From the IMG/VR virus record IMGVR_UViG_3300035661_000264, positions 1-29,649 of that record: a DNA stretch of 29,649 nt. One strand, given 5' to 3'. Positions 1-29,366 of this stretch are shown here, piece after piece (positions within the stretch are counted from its first letter, which is position 1; each line of letters opens with the position of its first letter). The notes below the pieces were generated by a model, which made no database searches, was not told the DNA's origin, and saw only the letters and a list, made by a program, of their open reading frames with translations. This stretch comes from a virus. The translations under genes were made by a program, and so were the position numbers.

Positions 1-1298
1 AGTATCTTGTTGACGTAGTCCATGGTCTCTGCTGGTACCTGACCGGCCCTGAGATAAGGCAGGTGCTTGTCGCCTGGGCCCCAGTTGTAGGCCGCGGTGG
101 CCTTGACGATGTCGCCTCCGAACATCTTCATAAGGTCAGACATGTAGCGAGCCGCGCCAGTGGCAGAGCTCTCAAAACTGTTGACATCGACCCCGTATTG
201 CTTAGCTGTGGAGTCGATGAATTGGAAGTCACCCTTGGCCTGGCCGTACTTCGTCATCCGACCTAGCTTGTTCTTGCCCCGGCCCGATTCAGCCGCCCAC
301 ATGCGGTCGAGGAAGCCATCAGGCAACCCGTACTGCCTCTCCAGGTTGCCTAGGATGGCCGGAACGCCCCCTTGCTGCGACGATCCGGCGCCAGGCAAGG
401 GCTCACTGCCCACCGTGCCCGTCGCGCGCCTCCCAGCCCCGCTCCCGCCGTTGACAAGATCCATGGCATCTCTTGCCGCCTGGCCACTCATCAAGAACTT
501 GAGGTGGTCCCACCAAGTCTGCCCGGCGTGCTCTTTCACGACGGCCGCCTTGCCCCAAAGATCGGCCAGCTTGGAGACCCCTACGAGAACCCGTTCAGTG
601 ATGCCAGCCAGGTCCTTGAAGGTAGGCAGCAGCTCTCGCATCGTGATCTGCTTCAGGATGCTGAAGCGTTCAGAGAGCCTGTCGAGCATGTTGGCGTACT
701 CTAGTCCTTCGTTCTTGGCCTGCTCAAGATCGAGGCCAGCTTCTTTGGCCATGTCCTTCTGTGATGCCGCCAGGGCGTCGAGCTTCTCCTGGCCCTTTGA
801 CCAGAGCAGGAACTCGTCGGGGCCGATGCCGAACATCTGAGCAATCTGCGCCCCTTGGTAGAACGGCAGCTTCGACCATGATTTGACGAGGTCGCGCGCC
901 ACATCAGAGACATCCCGTCCCTTGACAGTCACCCCGAAGCTCTCGGCAAAAGCAATCATGCCGGGATTCATCCGGAGCGACATGGCCACCTTTTCGATAG
1001 CCCCCTGCATCGCTTCGCTACTGATCCCGATCTGCTTGGCGCCGTAGGTGATGGCCGCCAGGCTGCTCGCCGTGCTATCCGCCTTGATCGAAGCGTAGTA
1101 CATCCGCTCCATCGACCTGGCGAACTGCGTCACCATGTTGTTGACGGCCTTTGCCGCGATCCAGGCCTGTGCGGCCAGACCGCCGACCTTCCCGGTCGAC
1201 TTGCCTACGGTCAGGTCAAACTTGTTGTGCCCGGCCTCGTCGATCTTGAAGCCGAGCAGCAGTAGGTACTCGCGGAGGATCTTGATGTCAGCAGCCAT
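1..1298 (-). CDS. Tail tape measure protein with lytic transglycosylase domain (3' end off the left edge)
   Basis: An open frame runs from ATG at 1298 to the left edge without a stop, giving 432 residues of an unfinished protein. Residues 1-290 are mostly helical in composition, as in tape measure proteins, which set tail length and occupy the tail lumen. Residues about 310-430 look like a soluble lytic transglycosylase (SLT) domain: the putative catalytic Glu337 in WAAESG, the GDFQF segment near 356-360, and AAYNWGPG at 402-409, which corresponds to the family's AYNAGxG motif. Such domains cleave peptidoglycan during DNA entry. The gene follows the tail tube and chaperone genes, the standard place for a tape measure. 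The start lies 6 bases after the stop of the chaperone extension, with only a weak Shine-Dalgarno (AAGGG), so coupling is likely. The protein is short before the SLT domain. How much follows it cannot be seen. Confidence 0.88.
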   Translation of the reverse strand, partial: MAADIKILREYLLLLGFKIDEAGHNKFDLTVGKSTGKVGGLAAQAWIAAKAVNNMVTQFARSMERMYYASIKADSTASSLAAITYGAKQIGISSEAMQGAIEKVAMSLRMNPGMIAFAESFGVTVKGRDVSDVARDLVKSWSKLPFYQGAQIAQMFGIGPDEFLLWSKGQEKLDALAASQKDMAKEAGLDLEQAKNEGLEYANMLDRLSERFSILKQITMRELLPTFKDLAGITERVLVGVSKLADLWGKAAVVKEHAGQTWWDHLKFLMSGQAARDAMDLVNGGSGAGRRATGTVGSEPLPGAGSSQQGGVPAILGNLERQYGLPDGFLDRMWAAESGRGKNKLGRMTKYGQAKGDFQFIDSTAKQYGVDVNSFESSATGAARYMSDLMKMFGGDIVKATAAYNWGPGDKHLPYLRAGQVPAETMDYVNKI

Positions 1299-1304
1299 GG
1301 TGCG

Positions 1305-1556
1305 TCAGCCCTTTTTCGGTTTACTGCGGAAGTGGTTCTCAGCCTCAACATCGAGGGCTTCATTAAGCAGGTCAACGTCTTCAAGGGTCAAGGTGCCGTC
1401 GAGCAGACTCTCGTACTTGCATAAACCACGAAGGACCGGGCGCAGCACCCAGTCCTCGTGATCAACCATAGCCACAAAATCAGGACCGGCCCCTTCGTAA
1501 GCCACCGCCAAACTACGGAAACTCTTCAGAGCTTCGCGGCGCTTGGCGGAGTTCCG
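1305..1556 (-). CDS. Tail assembly chaperone, -1 frameshift extension (GT-type second half)
   Basis: This is the -1 frame continuation of the upstream chaperone gene. From base 1556 the frame is open without interruption to TGA at 1305-1307, adding 83 residues (starting RNSAKRREAL) to the first 128 residues of the upstream protein, for a 211-residue fusion. The last 68 residues carry WVLRPVLRGLCKYESL and a DGTLTLEDVDLLNEALDV segment, which resembles small proteins found between the tail chaperone and tape measure in other phages. A separate start at TTG 1511 is possible but has no convincing ribosome binding site. The frameshift route fits the known G/GT arrangement of tailed phages, in which the fused form recruits tape measure and tube protein during tail assembly. 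Confidence 0.75.
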   Translation of the reverse strand, partial: RNSAKRREALKSFRSLAVAYEGAGPDFVAMVDHEDWVLRPVLRGLCKYESLLDGTLTLEDVDLLNEALDVEAENHFRSKPKKG

Positions 1557-1939
1557 AAAAAACCCTCCAGATTGCCCTTCAAGACTTCAATGGTCAGCCG
1601 GATCATCACAGTCATGTCGATGTCAGCGAACATCAAGTGCCCGTTGGCCGCTTGAACCGGGGCCCACGCTTCACCCTGCTGACGCTTCACCACCGCCAGG
1701 CAGGTGCGCACGATGTACTCGACATCTTCGTCGGGCATCTTGGAGATGATGTCCATCACAGGTCCCATGACGCCCACGATGCCGCCCGTCGCTTCCTCTT
1801 CACGCAACTGCGCGAGCATGGAAGCAGACATGCCCATCTCCGCGAGGATCGGGAGAAGACGCCGGGTGACGTGAAACTGCTTCATCGCGTCCAAACGCCC
1901 GGAGGTGTATGCCGCGCCATTGAGTTCAAACTGAGCCAT
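1526..1939 (-). CDS. Tail assembly chaperone (G-type first half)
   Basis: A protein of 137 residues beginning MAQFELNGAAYTSGRLDAM, with the FELNG and FHVTRRLLPILAE segments typical of phage tail assembly chaperones. These proteins bind the tape measure while tube subunits polymerise and are not part of the finished virion. ATG at 1939 has AGGA seven bases upstream. The gene sits between the tube protein and the tape measure, where chaperones are expected. Its 3' end carries the slippery heptamer, so a fraction of ribosomes should make the longer fusion. The normal product ends GTPPSAAKL after the slip site. Confidence 0.8.
   Translation of the reverse strand: MAQFELNGAAYTSGRLDAMKQFHVTRRLLPILAEMGMSASMLAQLREEEATGGIVGVMGPVMDIISKMPDEDVEYIVRTCLAVVKRQQGEAWAPVQAANGHLMFADIDMTVMIRLTIEVLKGNLEGFFGTPPSAAKL
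1556..1562 (-). other. Slippery heptamer for programmed -1 frameshift (T TTT TTC)
   Basis: On the minus strand the zero-frame codons read GGT TTT TTC, giving the canonical X XXY YYZ heptamer T TTT TTC. It lies nine codons before the zero-frame stop (1526-1528), and the -1 frame is open through the next ORF. A 7-bp stem (1529-1535 with 1518-1524, UGAA loop, one G-U pair) lies 20 bases downstream. That is farther than the usual 5-9 base spacing, so its role is unclear. Confidence 0.72.
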
Positions 1940-1969: not shown

Positions 1970-2407
1970 TCAGATACCGAGGGCCACGTCGATCTTGATG
2001 GCGTTGAAGTCCCACTCAACGAGCTGGGCCTCCTTGCCATAGGTGACCGCGGGCTGCTTCGTGAACGCGACCTGTTGGCAGGTGGTCGTTTCACCACGGG
2101 CCATGTCAACGATCGTGATCGTGTTCTGACCGTGCGTGGCCGCCGACGATCGCTGAAAGGCCAGCATCGCAGAGAGCAGACCGTTGGTCGGCGAGGTCTT
2201 CAACAGGCGCACCGTGATCTTGCCGGACTTGTCGGCGTGCAGAGAGTGCATGCCTTCACCATCGGCCCCGATCACCATCGTGTCGACCTCTGCGGTCGGA
2301 TCGACGCTGATGCCCTCGTCACTGACGCCGGCGCCATTGCCGAGCGGGATGACGCCACCAGGCCCCACGAGCGCGGCCTGGACTTCAAGAAAGCTGTAGG
2401 TCTTCAT
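1970..2407 (-). CDS. Tail tube protein, DUF3277 type
   Basis: A protein of 145 residues that resembles the DUF3277 family (MKTYSFLEVQAALVGPGG at the start; GEGMHSLHADKSGKITVRLLKT in the middle; YGKEAQLVEWDFNAIKID near the end). Proteins of this family follow a DUF3383 protein in myoviruses and are taken as the inner tail tube, polymerising inside the sheath. Start ATG 2407 is preceded by AAGGA at about ten bases. It lies directly after the sheath-like gene and before the chaperone, the classic sheath-tube-chaperone-tape measure order. The family match rests on recognition of sequence pattern and gene order, not a search. Confidence 0.83.
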   Translation of the reverse strand: MKTYSFLEVQAALVGPGGVIPLGNGAGVSDEGISVDPTAEVDTMVIGADGEGMHSLHADKSGKITVRLLKTSPTNGLLSAMLAFQRSSAATHGQNTITIVDMARGETTTCQQVAFTKQPAVTYGKEAQLVEWDFNAIKIDVALGI

Positions 2408-2419
2408 GATGGATGGTCC

Positions 2420-3904
2420 TTATTGGTTGACCGTGACGGAGACGTTGATGTCGTGAACTGCACCGGCGAGCTTGACCGCCACCTGGATCGGGACCGAGTG
2501 ACGCGCGGCGCGCAGAGCGGGGTCCTGCGCGGAGACCTTGGGTGCGTAGACGTAGAAGCCCTTGGGAAGATAGTCGCCCATCTTCAGCGAACCGAAGCCG
2601 CCAGAGTTCCACGAGCCAGGCGCAAGCATGCCGTTGATCACCGCCTGCGAGCAGACGCTCTCGACCGTGGTCACCATCATGTTCGTGCCGGTGTCGGTCT
2701 GTGGGATCTTCGTCGTGCTGGTGTAGAGCAGGTTGTAGAGCGCGGTCTGCAGTGCAATCGCCAGCCAGTCCGTCGAGGTGATCACGTCGATAAAGTCGCC
2801 TGAGGAGCAGACGCCGGTCTGGAAGATCGCGGTGTTGTTGTTGTATCCAACGAACACGTTGCAGTTCTTCGCGGTGAGTGCGTTCGCCTGAGTCGACGAC
2901 AGGGCCTCGGCCACGATCCCCGGCTCTTGTTTGTACATCAGGGTGATGACCGTGTTATTGCCGGTGTAGTCGGTCGTGAGGATCCGCGCCAGAGCGGAGA
3001 TCACCGCGTAGGGGTTCACCGACGAGAACTGCACTACCGTCTTCTTGTAGGCCAGGACCTGAAGCTGGGATGCGATGCTCGACGTATCACCGGCGACCAG
3101 GACCCCGGCCTCTTGCGTGGTGACGCCGTACAGATGCTTGGTGTTGGCCGCCTCGATGTAGCCGGCGATTGCCACATGGTCGGCATTGACCGCACCGATG
3201 ACCGTGACGGCGTACCAAGCCTGCCCGAAGTTCTGGTCGAACAGAGTGACCACGCTCAGGGCCGATTCGGCGGCGGCGCCGGTGTACGAATAGGCCCCCG
3301 AGTCGGCCGCGGTCATACCCATCACCGTCGAGATGTCGGTGCCAGCGCCAGGCGCCGTGAAGAAAGCCACGACAGAGGTCACACCCGTCAGGGTGGAGAC
3401 CGCCTCGAAACGAGACATCACCGCATTCCAGACCACCGTCATGCCACTCAATGCAGCCGTGATGATGGAGGCCACGTTGTTCAGGTTGGTGGCGCCACTG
3501 AAGTTCAGGCCAGAGACCGAAACCTGGGCCGAGCCGTTCTTTGAGTAGACGAAGCCGCCCGAGGTGATCAGGTTCCAGGCCGTGATCGACTGCTGCGCCA
3601 CGGAACGGAAGGCTCCTCGCAGGCCGCCCGTCGAGGCCACATTGGCCCAGCGGCCGATCTTCACAGAGCGGGGCTGGGGAGCCTGCTGGAACCAGAGGTT
3701 GGCGGCCTTGTATTCGGGCGTGGTGTTCCCGAAGTCAGCTGCCACCTCAGCCAGCGTGTCGTAGTCACGGTAGCGTTCGGTCGTGTCGATCACGGCCGTG
3801 GTGCCCAAGATGAGCAGGGTGGAAAGGTTCTGTGCGATGGCCCCGGCGGGAGTCAGCGTGACGCCGACATTGATCAGACGGGAAACCGGAAGTTGTTGCG
3901 TCAT
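2420..3904 (-). CDS. Tail sheath protein, DUF3383 family
   Basis: A protein of 494 residues that resembles DUF3383, a sheath-like family of contractile-tailed phages. Recognisable parts are VSRLINVGVTLTPAGAI and the LLILGTTAVIDTTERYRDY segment at the N-terminus, then FGNTTPEYKAANLWFQQ around residue 60-75, which is the usual family opening. The C-terminus (RHSVPIQVAVKLAGAVHDINV) resembles the terminal strands that join neighbouring sheath subunits. Start ATG 3904 has a good AAGGA six to seven bases upstream. The sheath contracts to drive the tube through the envelope. With the following DUF3277 gene this is the main evidence that the phage has a contractile tail. Confidence 0.87.
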   Translation of the reverse strand: MTQQLPVSRLINVGVTLTPAGAIAQNLSTLLILGTTAVIDTTERYRDYDTLAEVAADFGNTTPEYKAANLWFQQAPQPRSVKIGRWANVASTGGLRGAFRSVAQQSITAWNLITSGGFVYSKNGSAQVSVSGLNFSGATNLNNVASIITAALSGMTVVWNAVMSRFEAVSTLTGVTSVVAFFTAPGAGTDISTVMGMTAADSGAYSYTGAAAESALSVVTLFDQNFGQAWYAVTVIGAVNADHVAIAGYIEAANTKHLYGVTTQEAGVLVAGDTSSIASQLQVLAYKKTVVQFSSVNPYAVISALARILTTDYTGNNTVITLMYKQEPGIVAEALSSTQANALTAKNCNVFVGYNNNTAIFQTGVCSSGDFIDVITSTDWLAIALQTALYNLLYTSTTKIPQTDTGTNMMVTTVESVCSQAVINGMLAPGSWNSGGFGSLKMGDYLPKGFYVYAPKVSAQDPALRAARHSVPIQVAVKLAGAVHDINVSVTVNQ

Positions 3905-8125: not shown

Positions 8126-9067
8126 TCACTTCTTGCCCTGGGAGGCCCAGAACGCTTTGTTCTGGGCATTCAGCGAAGACAACGAGGTTGCCTGCGACGG
8201 TGCACCAGAGGGGGTCGGAACGCGGTGAGCGGTGTCGCCCACAGAGGTCCGGTTGTTGAGGAGTTTCTTGGCCCCGGCCGCGGCGCGGAAGAGCACTGCA
8301 GTCTGGGCGCAATCCTGCTTGCTGAGGTTCACGTCAGCGACCCCGGCCACGGAGTCGACCAGCGCCTTGCCGTCAGCGGTGATGTAGACCGAGCTCAGCA
8401 CTTGCTTGCGCAGAGCGCACATGTTGTCGACGGTCTTCTGGCGCGTGGTCTTCGCGTCGAAGGTCGGCATGCGGAAGCCAGGCAGCAGGATCTCGGCGTC
8501 GCTCAAGAGCTGACGGAACGAAGTCTCCAGGCCGGCCGAGTCGTTGGTGGCCTTGCGATCACCGGTCTTGACGTTCGACATGTCGCCCGCTTCGCCGGAG
8601 TCACCGGAGTCGGGCAGCTTGACGGTGCCGGTGTTGCCCATCTCGTCTTGCGTCACGTCTTCAGGCGCTGCGGGAGACCGTTCGCCTTCCGCCGGAAGCT
8701 GTTCGCCACCTTCGTCACCGCCTTGAAGGATGGCGAGGATCTGGGCCATCTGACCTTCCAGGACCGTCAAGCGCTCCTCGGGGGTCCTACCACTAGCGGG
8801 GGCACCACTAGCGGGGGCACCACTAGCGGGGGCACCACTAGCGGGGGCACCACTAGCGGGGGTGCCGCCAGCTTCACCCGAATGGATGTGGATGTGGGTG
8901 TGGTTGCCGTCGGTCTCATCACCGTCGGGCTCTTCGCCGGGTTCGTCGCCGTCAGGAATGCCGGAGTTGCCGAGCTGTTCCAGGGCCGCTTCTTCCGCGT
9001 CCTTGAAAGAGCGCCGCACGGCTTCTTTGACCGCATCGGAAACAATCCGCCGCGTCTTATGCTTCAT
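8126..9067 (-). CDS. Nested in-frame scaffold protein (internal start in the protease gene)
   Basis: ATG 9067 lies in frame inside the protease gene and is preceded by a very good Shine-Dalgarno, GAAGGAG, six bases upstream. The product would be 313 residues starting MKHKTRRIVSDAVKEAVRR, containing only the acidic, low-complexity and coiled-coil part and lacking the protease domain. Phage lambda (C and Nu3) and Mu make their scaffold in this way from an internal start in the protease gene. The sequence shows the start and ribosome site. That the product is made is inference. Confidence 0.6.
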   Translation of the reverse strand: MKHKTRRIVSDAVKEAVRRSFKDAEEAALEQLGNSGIPDGDEPGEEPDGDETDGNHTHIHIHSGEAGGTPASGAPASGAPASGAPASGAPASGRTPEERLTVLEGQMAQILAILQGGDEGGEQLPAEGERSPAAPEDVTQDEMGNTGTVKLPDSGDSGEAGDMSNVKTGDRKATNDSAGLETSFRQLLSDAEILLPGFRMPTFDAKTTRQKTVDNMCALRKQVLSSVYITADGKALVDSVAGVADVNLSKQDCAQTAVLFRAAAGAKKLLNNRTSVGDTAHRVPTPSGAPSQATSLSSLNAQNKAFWASQGKK

Positions 9068-9673
9068 TGAGTTCTCCTTCAAGGAGGTTGGATGATGGTC
9101 GCCGATTGCACAGCGCGGGCCACAGCGACCTCTTTCGACCAGCGCAACATGATTGCCGATTATATTGGTCTGACGACCTTGACCCTCCCCGGTCTGTTCG
9201 TAGTCAGCCTCGTAACCAGCAGACACTTCTCGCTTGCCGGCCAGCACGTCACGGATCGTGTCAGCGTCCGTAATCAACAGGTCGGCTAGCATCACATCGG
9301 AGTCGTCTCCAACTCCTCGACGTGGGTTCATACAGATGCCCACAGCGAACGTCTTCCAGTTGGAAGGGTTCACGTCGACATCGGGGTGATCGTTGACCAC
9401 GGGCTTGCCTTGGTAACTCGACACGGCCGACTTGGAGAACAGAGCCTCTGCGTCGCGAGTGATCGTAGCCCGGCCATCCTTACCCGCCGCGATGGGCGTT
9501 TCCTGAGGCCCGTAGACCATGTCGCCGATCCTGGCGATAGGCACGTCCTCGCAGAGCAGGAAGCCTTCCGGAGTCTTCGACTGCTTGGCTCCTAGCTTCT
9601 GGGTCGTGAAGACCTCAGTCGCCGTGTCAGCGCGATCCCGCGTGAGACGGCGGCGGTTCCATTTGATGCCCAT
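8126..9673 (-). CDS. Prohead protease, DUF2213 type, with fused scaffold-like region
   Basis: A protein of 515 residues. ATG 9673 was chosen for its GAAGAGG site and because it follows the MuF-type gene by 13 bases. Residues 1-195 match the pattern of DUF2213 proteins: KTPEGFLLCEDVPIARIG, the PVVNDHP segment (His96), DVMLADLLITDAD, then REVSAGYEADYE (Ser151) and NHVALVERGR. This family is regarded as capsid maturation protease; His96 and Ser151 are plausible catalytic residues. Residues 203-515 are acidic, helical and of low complexity, with five GAPAS repeats and a LTVLEGQMAQILAIL coiled-coil-like stretch, as in scaffold proteins. The C-terminus is conserved-looking (LPGFRMPTFDAKTTRQKTV). 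It would line the prohead and be degraded on maturation. Confidence 0.82.
   Translation of the reverse strand: MGIKWNRRRLTRDRADTATEVFTTQKLGAKQSKTPEGFLLCEDVPIARIGDMVYGPQETPIAAGKDGRATITRDAEALFSKSAVSSYQGKPVVNDHPDVDVNPSNWKTFAVGICMNPRRGVGDDSDVMLADLLITDADTIRDVLAGKREVSAGYEADYEQTGEGQGRQTNIIGNHVALVERGRCGPRCAIGDHHPTSLKENSMKHKTRRIVSDAVKEAVRRSFKDAEEAALEQLGNSGIPDGDEPGEEPDGDETDGNHTHIHIHSGEAGGTPASGAPASGAPASGAPASGAPASGRTPEERLTVLEGQMAQILAILQGGDEGGEQLPAEGERSPAAPEDVTQDEMGNTGTVKLPDSGDSGEAGDMSNVKTGDRKATNDSAGLETSFRQLLSDAEILLPGFRMPTFDAKTTRQKTVDNMCALRKQVLSSVYITADGKALVDSVAGVADVNLSKQDCAQTAVLFRAAAGAKKLLNNRTSVGDTAHRVPTPSGAPSQATSLSSLNAQNKAFWASQGKK
8789..8863 (-). repeat. Tandem 15-bp repeat, five copies, encoding GAPAS units
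   Basis: Five head-to-tail 15-bp units (plus strand ACCACTAGCGGGGGC, last copy ending T) run through 8789-8863. They encode APASG five times in the linker of the protease/scaffold protein. Copies are identical except the final base, so they probably arose by recent slippage and keep the reading frame because the unit is a multiple of three. Confidence 0.93.
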
Positions 9674-9686
9674 GAATCGGCCCTCT

Positions 9687-10433
9687 TCAATCGTTAGGAA
9701 AGATCGGCTCGGCGAAGCAGCGGCAGTTAGGCAGAGTGCCTGCGTGGCCCACAAGACCATCGAGCGTAGGCGGGTTCGACCAACGTACATACTTGCCTTC
9801 CATCTTGTCGTGCGACTCGCGCACATTCATGTCACCCGACGTTCTCCAAATGTAGCCGTCAGATCCTGCGTACTGAGACCTAGCCTGCGTTAGGTTCGAT
9901 GCAGCGCGGGCCACTTCGGTCCTTGCTATCAGCCTGGCTCGGCCTTCCGTGACCGATTCAGTTCGCATGATCTCGGCTGCTACTTCAGAAGCTCGACGAG
10001 ATTCAATGAGGGATTGTAGTGAAAGCGAGTGGACGCGCTCCGCCGCTTCTAGTGGCAGAGACTTGATGAGTGCGACCTGTTCAGCCTGGAGGCCCGCAAG
10101 AGCCTGGCTCACGGGCGCGTCGCTGGTCAACAGCTGGCGCATCTCCGTGCCCATCTCCTGTGAAGTCTTGAACCACATCTGCTTGTCACGCCGGGCCACA
10201 TCAGCAAGCATCATTCCTGCCACGGAACCGGCCCAAGGCTCGATTAGTTTCGCGTAGTCGGTCAAAGCCTTGAGCAGAGGTTTTACGTTCGTCAAAACGC
10301 CTTTGGGGGCCATGCCCTTGACGATGGCCCCCACCTGCTTCGCAACTGACCTAAGTGCGGAGTTGTACGCGCGCTCGCCGTTGCGTGCCTTGGTCCACTT
10401 GGCCCTCTTGCCCTTGCGGTCCAGCTTGGCCAT
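9687..10433 (-). CDS. MuF-type head morphogenesis protein (SPP1 gp7 family)
   Basis: A protein of 248 residues. The C-terminal half has the MuF signature: ARTEVARA (170-177), YIWRTSGDMNVRESHDKMEGK (a little past 194), and GHAGTLPNCRCFAEPIF (229-245) with His208, His230, Cys237 and Cys239. The N-terminal half is helical and basic. MuF proteins are minor head proteins next to the portal and are needed for correct head assembly or DNA ejection. ATG 10433 has GGAG seven bases upstream and follows the portal stop by ten bases. The gene lies between portal and protease, its usual place. Unlike many MuF proteins it carries no extra C-terminal toxin domain. Confidence 0.88.
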   Translation of the reverse strand: MAKLDRKGKRAKWTKARNGERAYNSALRSVAKQVGAIVKGMAPKGVLTNVKPLLKALTDYAKLIEPWAGSVAGMMLADVARRDKQMWFKTSQEMGTEMRQLLTSDAPVSQALAGLQAEQVALIKSLPLEAAERVHSLSLQSLIESRRASEVAAEIMRTESVTEGRARLIARTEVARAASNLTQARSQYAGSDGYIWRTSGDMNVRESHDKMEGKYVRWSNPPTLDGLVGHAGTLPNCRCFAEPIFPND

Positions 10434-28416: not shown

Positions 28417-29166
28417 TCAGAGGGTGATGGCCCACATGTCGTCGGCCAGTTTGGGGTTGGTGATGTAGTCGTATGGCATCGTGAAGTAGCCGTTGATGCC
28501 CCAACTTGATCCCCACGAGTTGCGGACGATCATGCGACGTGAGTCATCGTCATAGCCGACACAGAGCACTGCGTGGCCGCCTAGTAGGCGTTCGCCTGGC
28601 GTGGGCATCTCTAGCCGACCTGAGTCGGCCACGGCTTGAGACTCGAAGCTCTCGTAGACTGCGAAGCCGAACACGAATGGCTTGTTGTCGTAGGCCAGGC
28701 ACGTCCTCATTGATTGAAGCGAGGTGATGCGGGCATACGAGCTAACCTTCTTGTTCAGCGCGTCGGCAAAGGCTGCCTTGGGTGGCTTCTGCTTGAATTT
28801 GCTGATGTCGTAGGGCCAGTCGAGTTCAGGGCAGACGCCAAGCTGGTTGACTGACTTGATGCCGTCGCGAATCATGGCCCCGGCATCTTGACGGACCGTG
28901 CCTTCTTTGACGCGTTCGTTATAGTAGATGAATAAGCGACTCGGCATCAGACCACCGGGGCCATTGGCGTAGTCGATGGCTCCTGCGATGGCGTTGCCGG
29001 TGCAGGATCCGAGCTGGCCTTGATCGTAGACCGCTGGCATGGCGCCGCGGAGATCAATAGAGGGCGGCAGCTGGGCTGGCTTGCCGATCATCATGTAAAG
29101 ATGGTCGCGGCCGTCGTGTTGATCCGGCCGCCAGCCATGAATGAACTTGCGTCGCTTGTTGGTCAT
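28417..29166 (-). CDS. Papain-like C1 family cysteine peptidase
   Basis: A protein of 249 residues. I chose ATG 29166 with AAAGGA about eight bases upstream, so a 36-residue upstream extension is excluded. The opening GWRPDQHDGRDHLY (11-24) resembles the usual start of bacterial and phage C1 peptidases. The active site is Cys55 in QGQLGSCTGNA with oxyanion Gln49, His198 in GGHAVLCVGYDD and Asn216 in NSWGSSWGINGYF. There is no signal peptide and no obvious prodomain, so it probably acts in the cytosol or the virion. It lies first in the operon, before terminase. The substrate is unknown; a host protein, or a virion precursor, is possible. The catalytic triad is intact. Confidence 0.88.
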   Translation of the reverse strand: MTNKRRKFIHGWRPDQHDGRDHLYMMIGKPAQLPPSIDLRGAMPAVYDQGQLGSCTGNAIAGAIDYANGPGGLMPSRLFIYYNERVKEGTVRQDAGAMIRDGIKSVNQLGVCPELDWPYDISKFKQKPPKAAFADALNKKVSSYARITSLQSMRTCLAYDNKPFVFGFAVYESFESQAVADSGRLEMPTPGERLLGGHAVLCVGYDDDSRRMIVRNSWGSSWGINGYFTMPYDYITNPKLADDMWAITL

Positions 29167-29366
29167 GGTATTAGTTCCTTTGGCCTGGGTGAAAAAGAAC
29201 CCCAATGCCGAACAAGCCTGAACTTCAGCACCGGGGGATCCAGCAAATCTCGTCACGAGATGGAAGCAGCTCAACCCCAGAAGAGCGCCAGGAAGCCCCC
29301 TAGGACCTCCCAGGATCGACGCAAAATGCCCTGAAGCGCCTACCCTGCCACTTGCCCCATCACGAG

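Follow-up and report, generated by a model that had tools for sequence, protein, structure and literature searches.

The question raised by this locus is whether two consecutive open reading frames of an uncultured virus, G and T, are translated separately or are joined by programmed -1 frameshifting of the ribosome, as in G/GT systems, which is what a sequence-only reading proposed. The window, that is, the whole stretch of DNA analysed, takes up the entire length of a virus record of 29,649 bases, and its minus strand is the one that carries G and T. The analysis described below makes such a frameshift, predicted from sequence, highly probable.

Organization of the locus and reading frames at the predicted slip site

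G and T are flanked by the tail tube and sheath genes on one side and by the tape measure gene on the other (Table 1). The sheath belongs to the DUF3383 family, therefore indicating a contractile tail. The PF21822 profile matched G in 57/57 members of an alignment made of every second one of the 112 other family representatives (see below) plus the window; for the T extension, DUF6889 and phrog_4364 matched 57/57 members each. Both of these entries are labelled 'unknown function' in their databases, and a limited literature search returned no mention of DUF6889. The assignment of the pair to the G/GT-type tail chaperones is supported by the Phage_TAC_15 profile of G, by its place between the tube and sheath genes and the tape measure gene, and by relatives annotated as frameshifted.

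Table 1. Features of the G/T locus and of its neighbourhood in the window.
Feature	Position	Strand	Evidence or remark
G, tail assembly chaperone, short form, 137 aa	1526..1939	-	PF21822 Phage_TAC_15 4.9e-27; phrog_1688 tail assembly chaperone 2.9e-35
T, -1 extension, slip to fusion stop	1305..1556	-	PF21829 DUF6889 2.8e-12; phrog_4364 2.3e-16
T as standalone ORF, TTG start	1305-1511	-	
Slip heptamer T_TTT_TTC (sequence-only reading)	1556..1562	-	in zero frame
Overlapping slip heptamer G_GGT_TTT	1559..1565	-	in zero frame; contains NNT_TTY, the pair conserved in the family
Predicted hairpin, 45 nt, 18 pairs, three stem parts	1505..1549	-	possible stimulator
SD-like AAGGG upstream of the slip	1575..1579	-	-4.5 kcal/mol
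Tape measure protein, truncated by window end	3..1298	-	phrog_2276 and phrog_12506 tail length tape measure; SLT domain
Tail tube-type protein (KPP10_Orf10; DUF3277 in relatives' records)	1970..2407	-	PF11681 1.7e-49; relatives' annotation
Tail sheath (DUF3383)	2420..3904	-	phrog_205 tail sheath 2.8e-114; PF11863 2.5e-125

The anatomy of the locus, its reading frames, the slip motif and the conservation of all of them are matters of observation. On the minus strand, the zero frame of G ends in GAG GGT TTT TTC GGA ACT CCG CCA AGC GCC GCG AAG CTC TGA; the slip stretch is GGTTTTTTC, of which GGCTTCTTC would be a synonymous version. T_TTT_TTC was found in the correct frame, as proposed, with nine sense codons between its TTC and the stop of G (1528-1526), and it is overlapped one codon upstream by G_GGT_TTT, both heptamers leading to the identical fusion. 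In the -1 frame, nothing interrupts the reading from 19 codons ahead of the end of G, across the overlap, until the stop at 1307-1305. Spliced reading after a -1 slip gave a G-T fusion of 211 aa, the length anticipated, with the predicted junction peptide ...NLEGFFRNSAK.... Only three heptamers of the type X_XXY_YYZ (Y = A or T) appeared in the 8,899 in-frame positions of the 31 listed minus-strand ORFs, and two of them are G_GGT_TTT and T_TTT_TTC at the G/T site. TTT accounts for 42/277 Phe codons in the same ORFs, and the G+C content of the window is 61.5%.

In the remainder of the record, an ORF for a papain-family cysteine protease (Peptidase_C1, PF00112, 9.8e-13) was located at 28417-29274 (minus strand), close to phage packaging genes. 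A perfect 15-bp tandem repeat of 4.9 copies (8789-8862) codes for a GAPAS repeat in a DUF2213 ORF (8126-9826, minus strand). Rfam and tRNA scans of the whole window gave no matches, nor did a plasmid search, and two weak NCBIfam matches to MerC, far under the cut-offs, were dismissed as chance.

Conservation of the frame relation and of the slip motif

A total of 222 loci was compared, comprising 14 named phages (of 37 matched records), 80 viral-contig loci obtained by G, 80 obtained by T, 47 loci from genomes and the window. The viral-contig loci were the best 80 of 546 confirmed with the G query and the best 80 of 400 confirmed with the T query; scanning the viral contigs with a single window protein as query detected no relative, whereas an alignment query did. 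The loci are partly redundant, with some contigs included twice, and 113 representatives were left at 80% nucleotide identity. The nearest named phages by G among the 37 matched records were Edwardsiella phage ZHS and Bordetella phage IFTN9 (around 41% identity, tblastn).

Both G and T were present at every one of the 222 loci, even at those found by G or T alone, and T was in the -1 frame relative to G in 222/222 loci and 113/113 representatives, from isolates, metagenomes and genomes. Neighbouring gene pairs used all three frames: same, +1 and -1 frames occurred in 9, 155 and 54 cases, respectively, for the tape measure gene with respect to T (218 pairs), and in 94, 23 and 95 cases for G with respect to its upstream gene (212 pairs). 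The possibility that one gene was split by an indel, through sequencing error or decay, might be considered given that the window is a single virus contig; however, the identical -1 split at all 222 loci, of such varied origin, renders it negligible. In one prophage locus (L067, 1805-2624) T is truncated and fused in frame to a gene lying downstream, still in the -1 frame; the truncation apparently resulted from a deletion that took out the tape measure gene. A match with the same length and contig position was obtained for L185, from Izhakiella australiensis.

When the last 40 codons of G were searched, within the part where the -1 frame stays open, an in-frame X_XXY_YYZ heptamer (Y = A or T) appeared in 107/113 representatives, as compared to 30/113 and 4/113 for the same search out of frame and to a mean of 22.3 (sd 3.6, maximum 30; 200 trials) expected from synonymous shuffling. 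In the remaining six (L004, L032, L050, L121, L176, and L193), which lack a canonical heptamer, the site still reads NNT_TTT, and the codon pair NNT_TTY, with the Phe codon on T_TTY, was present within the overlap in 113/113. The commonest P-A codon pairs were AAT_TTT (39), GGT_TTT (29), CCT_TTT (14), GAT_TTT (9), and AGT_TTT (9), in a tally whose site rule also scored the -1 residues and differed from a plain first match at 7/113 sites only. Phe at the slip was encoded by TTT in 105/113 cases vs. 217/556 elsewhere in G. The usual context of the site was NL(G/S)xF in the zero frame followed by (F/Y)xR in the -1 frame, the third -1 residue being Arg in 94/113 representatives and Asn in the window phage, a departure that weighs against the frameshift there. 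Directly past the slip, the -1 frame was better conserved than the zero frame (third residue: entropy of 1.16 vs. 2.51 bits).

Transcriptional slippage at the T run, in place of ribosomal slippage, would agree with the runs of 6-8 T found at the slip in 75/113 representatives, the run of the window having six T. Runs of six are, however, short for polymerase slippage, and the same -1 arrangement is kept in 38/113 representatives with only 3-5 T (e.g., CCCTTTTA), so that we regard this explanation as very improbable.

As to the exact position of the programmed ribosomal slip, in E. coli assays the tetramers U_UU.C and U_UU.U rank with the shift-prone ones, and heptamers of the form R_RR.U_UU.Y are described as shifty (PMC4066793). 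Because the relatives keep the NNT_TTY pair most consistently, the slip may take place one codon earlier than T_TTT_TTC, the actual slip codon then corresponding to G_GGT_TTT with no change in the fusion. Thus, of the slip placement originally put forward, the presence of T_TTT_TTC in frame stands, whereas the precise codon may have to be moved. A tentative generalization, which we consider possible although somewhat less than probable, is that the slip signal of TAC_15/DUF6889 chaperones combines a constant A-site Phe codon on T_TTY with a P-site half that drifts. The family would then offer a natural series of sites slipping mainly by the A-site tRNA, if the six non-canonical loci frameshift, and DUF6889/phrog_4364 would be halves of a frameshifted chaperone.

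Start codons of T and candidate stimulators

The second ORF had been described as having no good start of its own, in agreement with what was obtained: its first start is a TTG at 1511, with an anti-SD energy of -2.4 kcal/mol and located within a predicted stem. A GTG placed 80 nt past the end of G is preceded by a better SD (-5.9); its position, however, falls within the conserved T domain. Among the representatives, SD energies averaged -1.4 kcal/mol for T-frame starts (-6 or better in 5/113) vs. -6.2 kcal/mol for G starts (-6 or better in 67/113). Relatives lacking the heptamer and provided with a strong T start, the situation that the sequence-only reading had named as contrary to its proposal, were looked for; the relatives keep the heptamer and the T_TTY codon at the frequencies given above, and their T starts are mostly SD-less.

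ATG, GTG or TTG occurred between the slip and the T core in 92/113 representatives, so the absence of starts is not by itself sufficient to dismiss a separate translation of T. These T-frame start codons, together with some records that carry T as a separate CDS and with the fact that translational coupling works without a strong SD, would speak for an independent translation of T by reinitiation or coupling past the G stop (at the TTG 17 nt or a GTG 23 nt downstream), with no frameshift. Independent translation would, however, put no constraint on the frame of T with respect to G, whereas T is in the -1 frame in 113/113. The 21/113 representatives with none of these codons, the absence of SD in the T frame and the -1 frame conserved immediately past the slip, with the TTG of the window sitting in a stem, point in the same direction, and we judge this explanation as improbable as transcriptional slippage. 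From these comparisons separate translation of T appears unlikely, and the fixed -1 frame is a stronger argument than the start codons.

Regarding possible stimulators of the frameshift, the predicted hairpin of the window begins 6 nt after TTC (9 nt after TTT) and its 3' arm contains the TTG start of T. The 59 nt holding it had an MFE of -27.7 and a z of -3.48, equalled by 2/200 shuffles; the hairpin alone (-26.0) ranked 5 among the 113 representatives, and by energy the hairpin region ranked 71 of 5,918 sequence segments. Hairpins of the family starting 3-12 nt downstream were not enriched over upstream controls (medians of -14.3 vs. -14.2; p 0.47), and the mean z of the family was -0.56 for the 60 nt downstream vs. 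-0.31 upstream. A downstream structure shared across the family was rejected for lack of enrichment over the upstream controls in the 113 representatives, and for this reason a stimulatory role of the hairpin is plausible for the window phage only.

Upstream of the slip, the AAGGG of the window, a weak candidate, is placed at a dnaX-like spacing, and its pairing was no stronger than that of the gene's own synonymous shuffles (-4.5 vs. -4.9). At the family level, an SD-like element was most marked where 7-mers began 18-19 nt ahead of the A-site codon, and was stronger than in synonymous shuffles (mean of -3.47 vs. -2.67 ± 0.17); at codon -5, GAG and GAA were found in a proportion of 23:2, vs. 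315:395 elsewhere. A GGAGG (1564-1568, minus strand; anti-SD energy about -9.5) is also found immediately upstream of the slip, nearer to it than the usual spacing of -1 stimulators.

Proposed decoding of G and GT and relation to known systems

The AlphaFold model of G had a pLDDT of 86.9, and its best viral structural matches, which are predicted structures, include named tail assembly chaperones. Foldseek of the model against PDB gave no match at E <= 0.001, and sequence searches against solved structures yielded nothing credible. In a second structural comparison, covering 66 chains, only 5ir0 was retrieved (Z 8.1, 94 aligned, rmsd 3.2). HK97 gp13 (2OB9), a solved tail assembly chaperone fold (PMC9603447), was absent among the matches in those 66 chains, which excludes nothing. 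The protein in 5ir0 is ORF19 from a PICI-like element of Vibrio cholerae; judging from the model, a chaperone-like fold in this phage satellite protein would fit an interference with helper tail assembly, and a title listing of the literature on ORF19 in helper tail interference returned nothing obvious.

What we infer is that the slip takes place, how often it does so, and what G and GT do. Most ribosomes would finish G at its stop, giving the 137-aa chaperone. In a minority, GGT/TTT (or TTT/TTC) would occupy the P and A sites when the ribosome moves one base backwards; from there, reading would go on in the -1 frame and yield the 211-aa GT fusion bearing the DUF6889 domain. The hairpin 6-9 nt downstream and the upstream SD-like stretch may perhaps raise the slip rate. 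By analogy with phage lambda, the tape measure protein would be covered by many copies of G and few of GT, T being the part that recruits the tube subunit.

What has been confirmed in this uncultured contractile-tailed phage is the sequence signature of a textbook recoding site. For annotation, the gain is concrete: DUF6889/phrog_4364, often a separate CDS or missed, is the T domain of the Phage_TAC_15 chaperones, made in all probability by frameshifting.

Several known systems resemble this locus. The slip heptamer of phage lambda is G_GGA_AAG. In that phage, G/GT consists of a short chaperone and a rare -1 fusion, with the tape measure gene downstream (PMC5009743); short chaperone, -1 fusion (in the window a predicted one) and position upstream of the tape measure gene are shared with the window. 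In the myovirus P2, E/E+E' uses a T6G slip in the -1 direction and E' is described as lacking a ribosome binding site (PMC3931495). The myovirus type and the direction of the slip, predicted in the case of the window, are common to P2 and the window, whereas Pfam assigned the window's G to TAC_15 only, and the P2 family was not among its Pfam/PHROG matches at E <= 0.01. The TAC-N/TAC-NC of Vandenendeviridae/Andersonviridae (phage Adele), also myoviruses, present a conserved GTTTTT and an open -1 frame, and a comparable conservation argument is already in print for Vandenendeviridae (PMC12846349); no Pseudomonas phage appeared among the 37 records matched by the window's G (tblastn). The closest counterparts are Klebsiella phage Mulock (MN098327) and Burkholderia phage Magia (NC_070954), with the same G/T families, gene place and -1 frame as the window, and with G proteins 35 and 31% identical to that of the window, respectively (tblastn). 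Their heptamers differ from those of the window, being A_AAT_TTT plus T_TTT_TTG in Mulock and C_CCT_TTT in Magia. Both records annotate the tape measure chaperone as a joined 'frameshift product' CDS, and the Magia frameshift is stated in print (PMC7883833). The kind of frameshift proposed here is thus an already known one, since it is annotated in Mulock and Magia, printed for the latter, and reviewed for G/GT.
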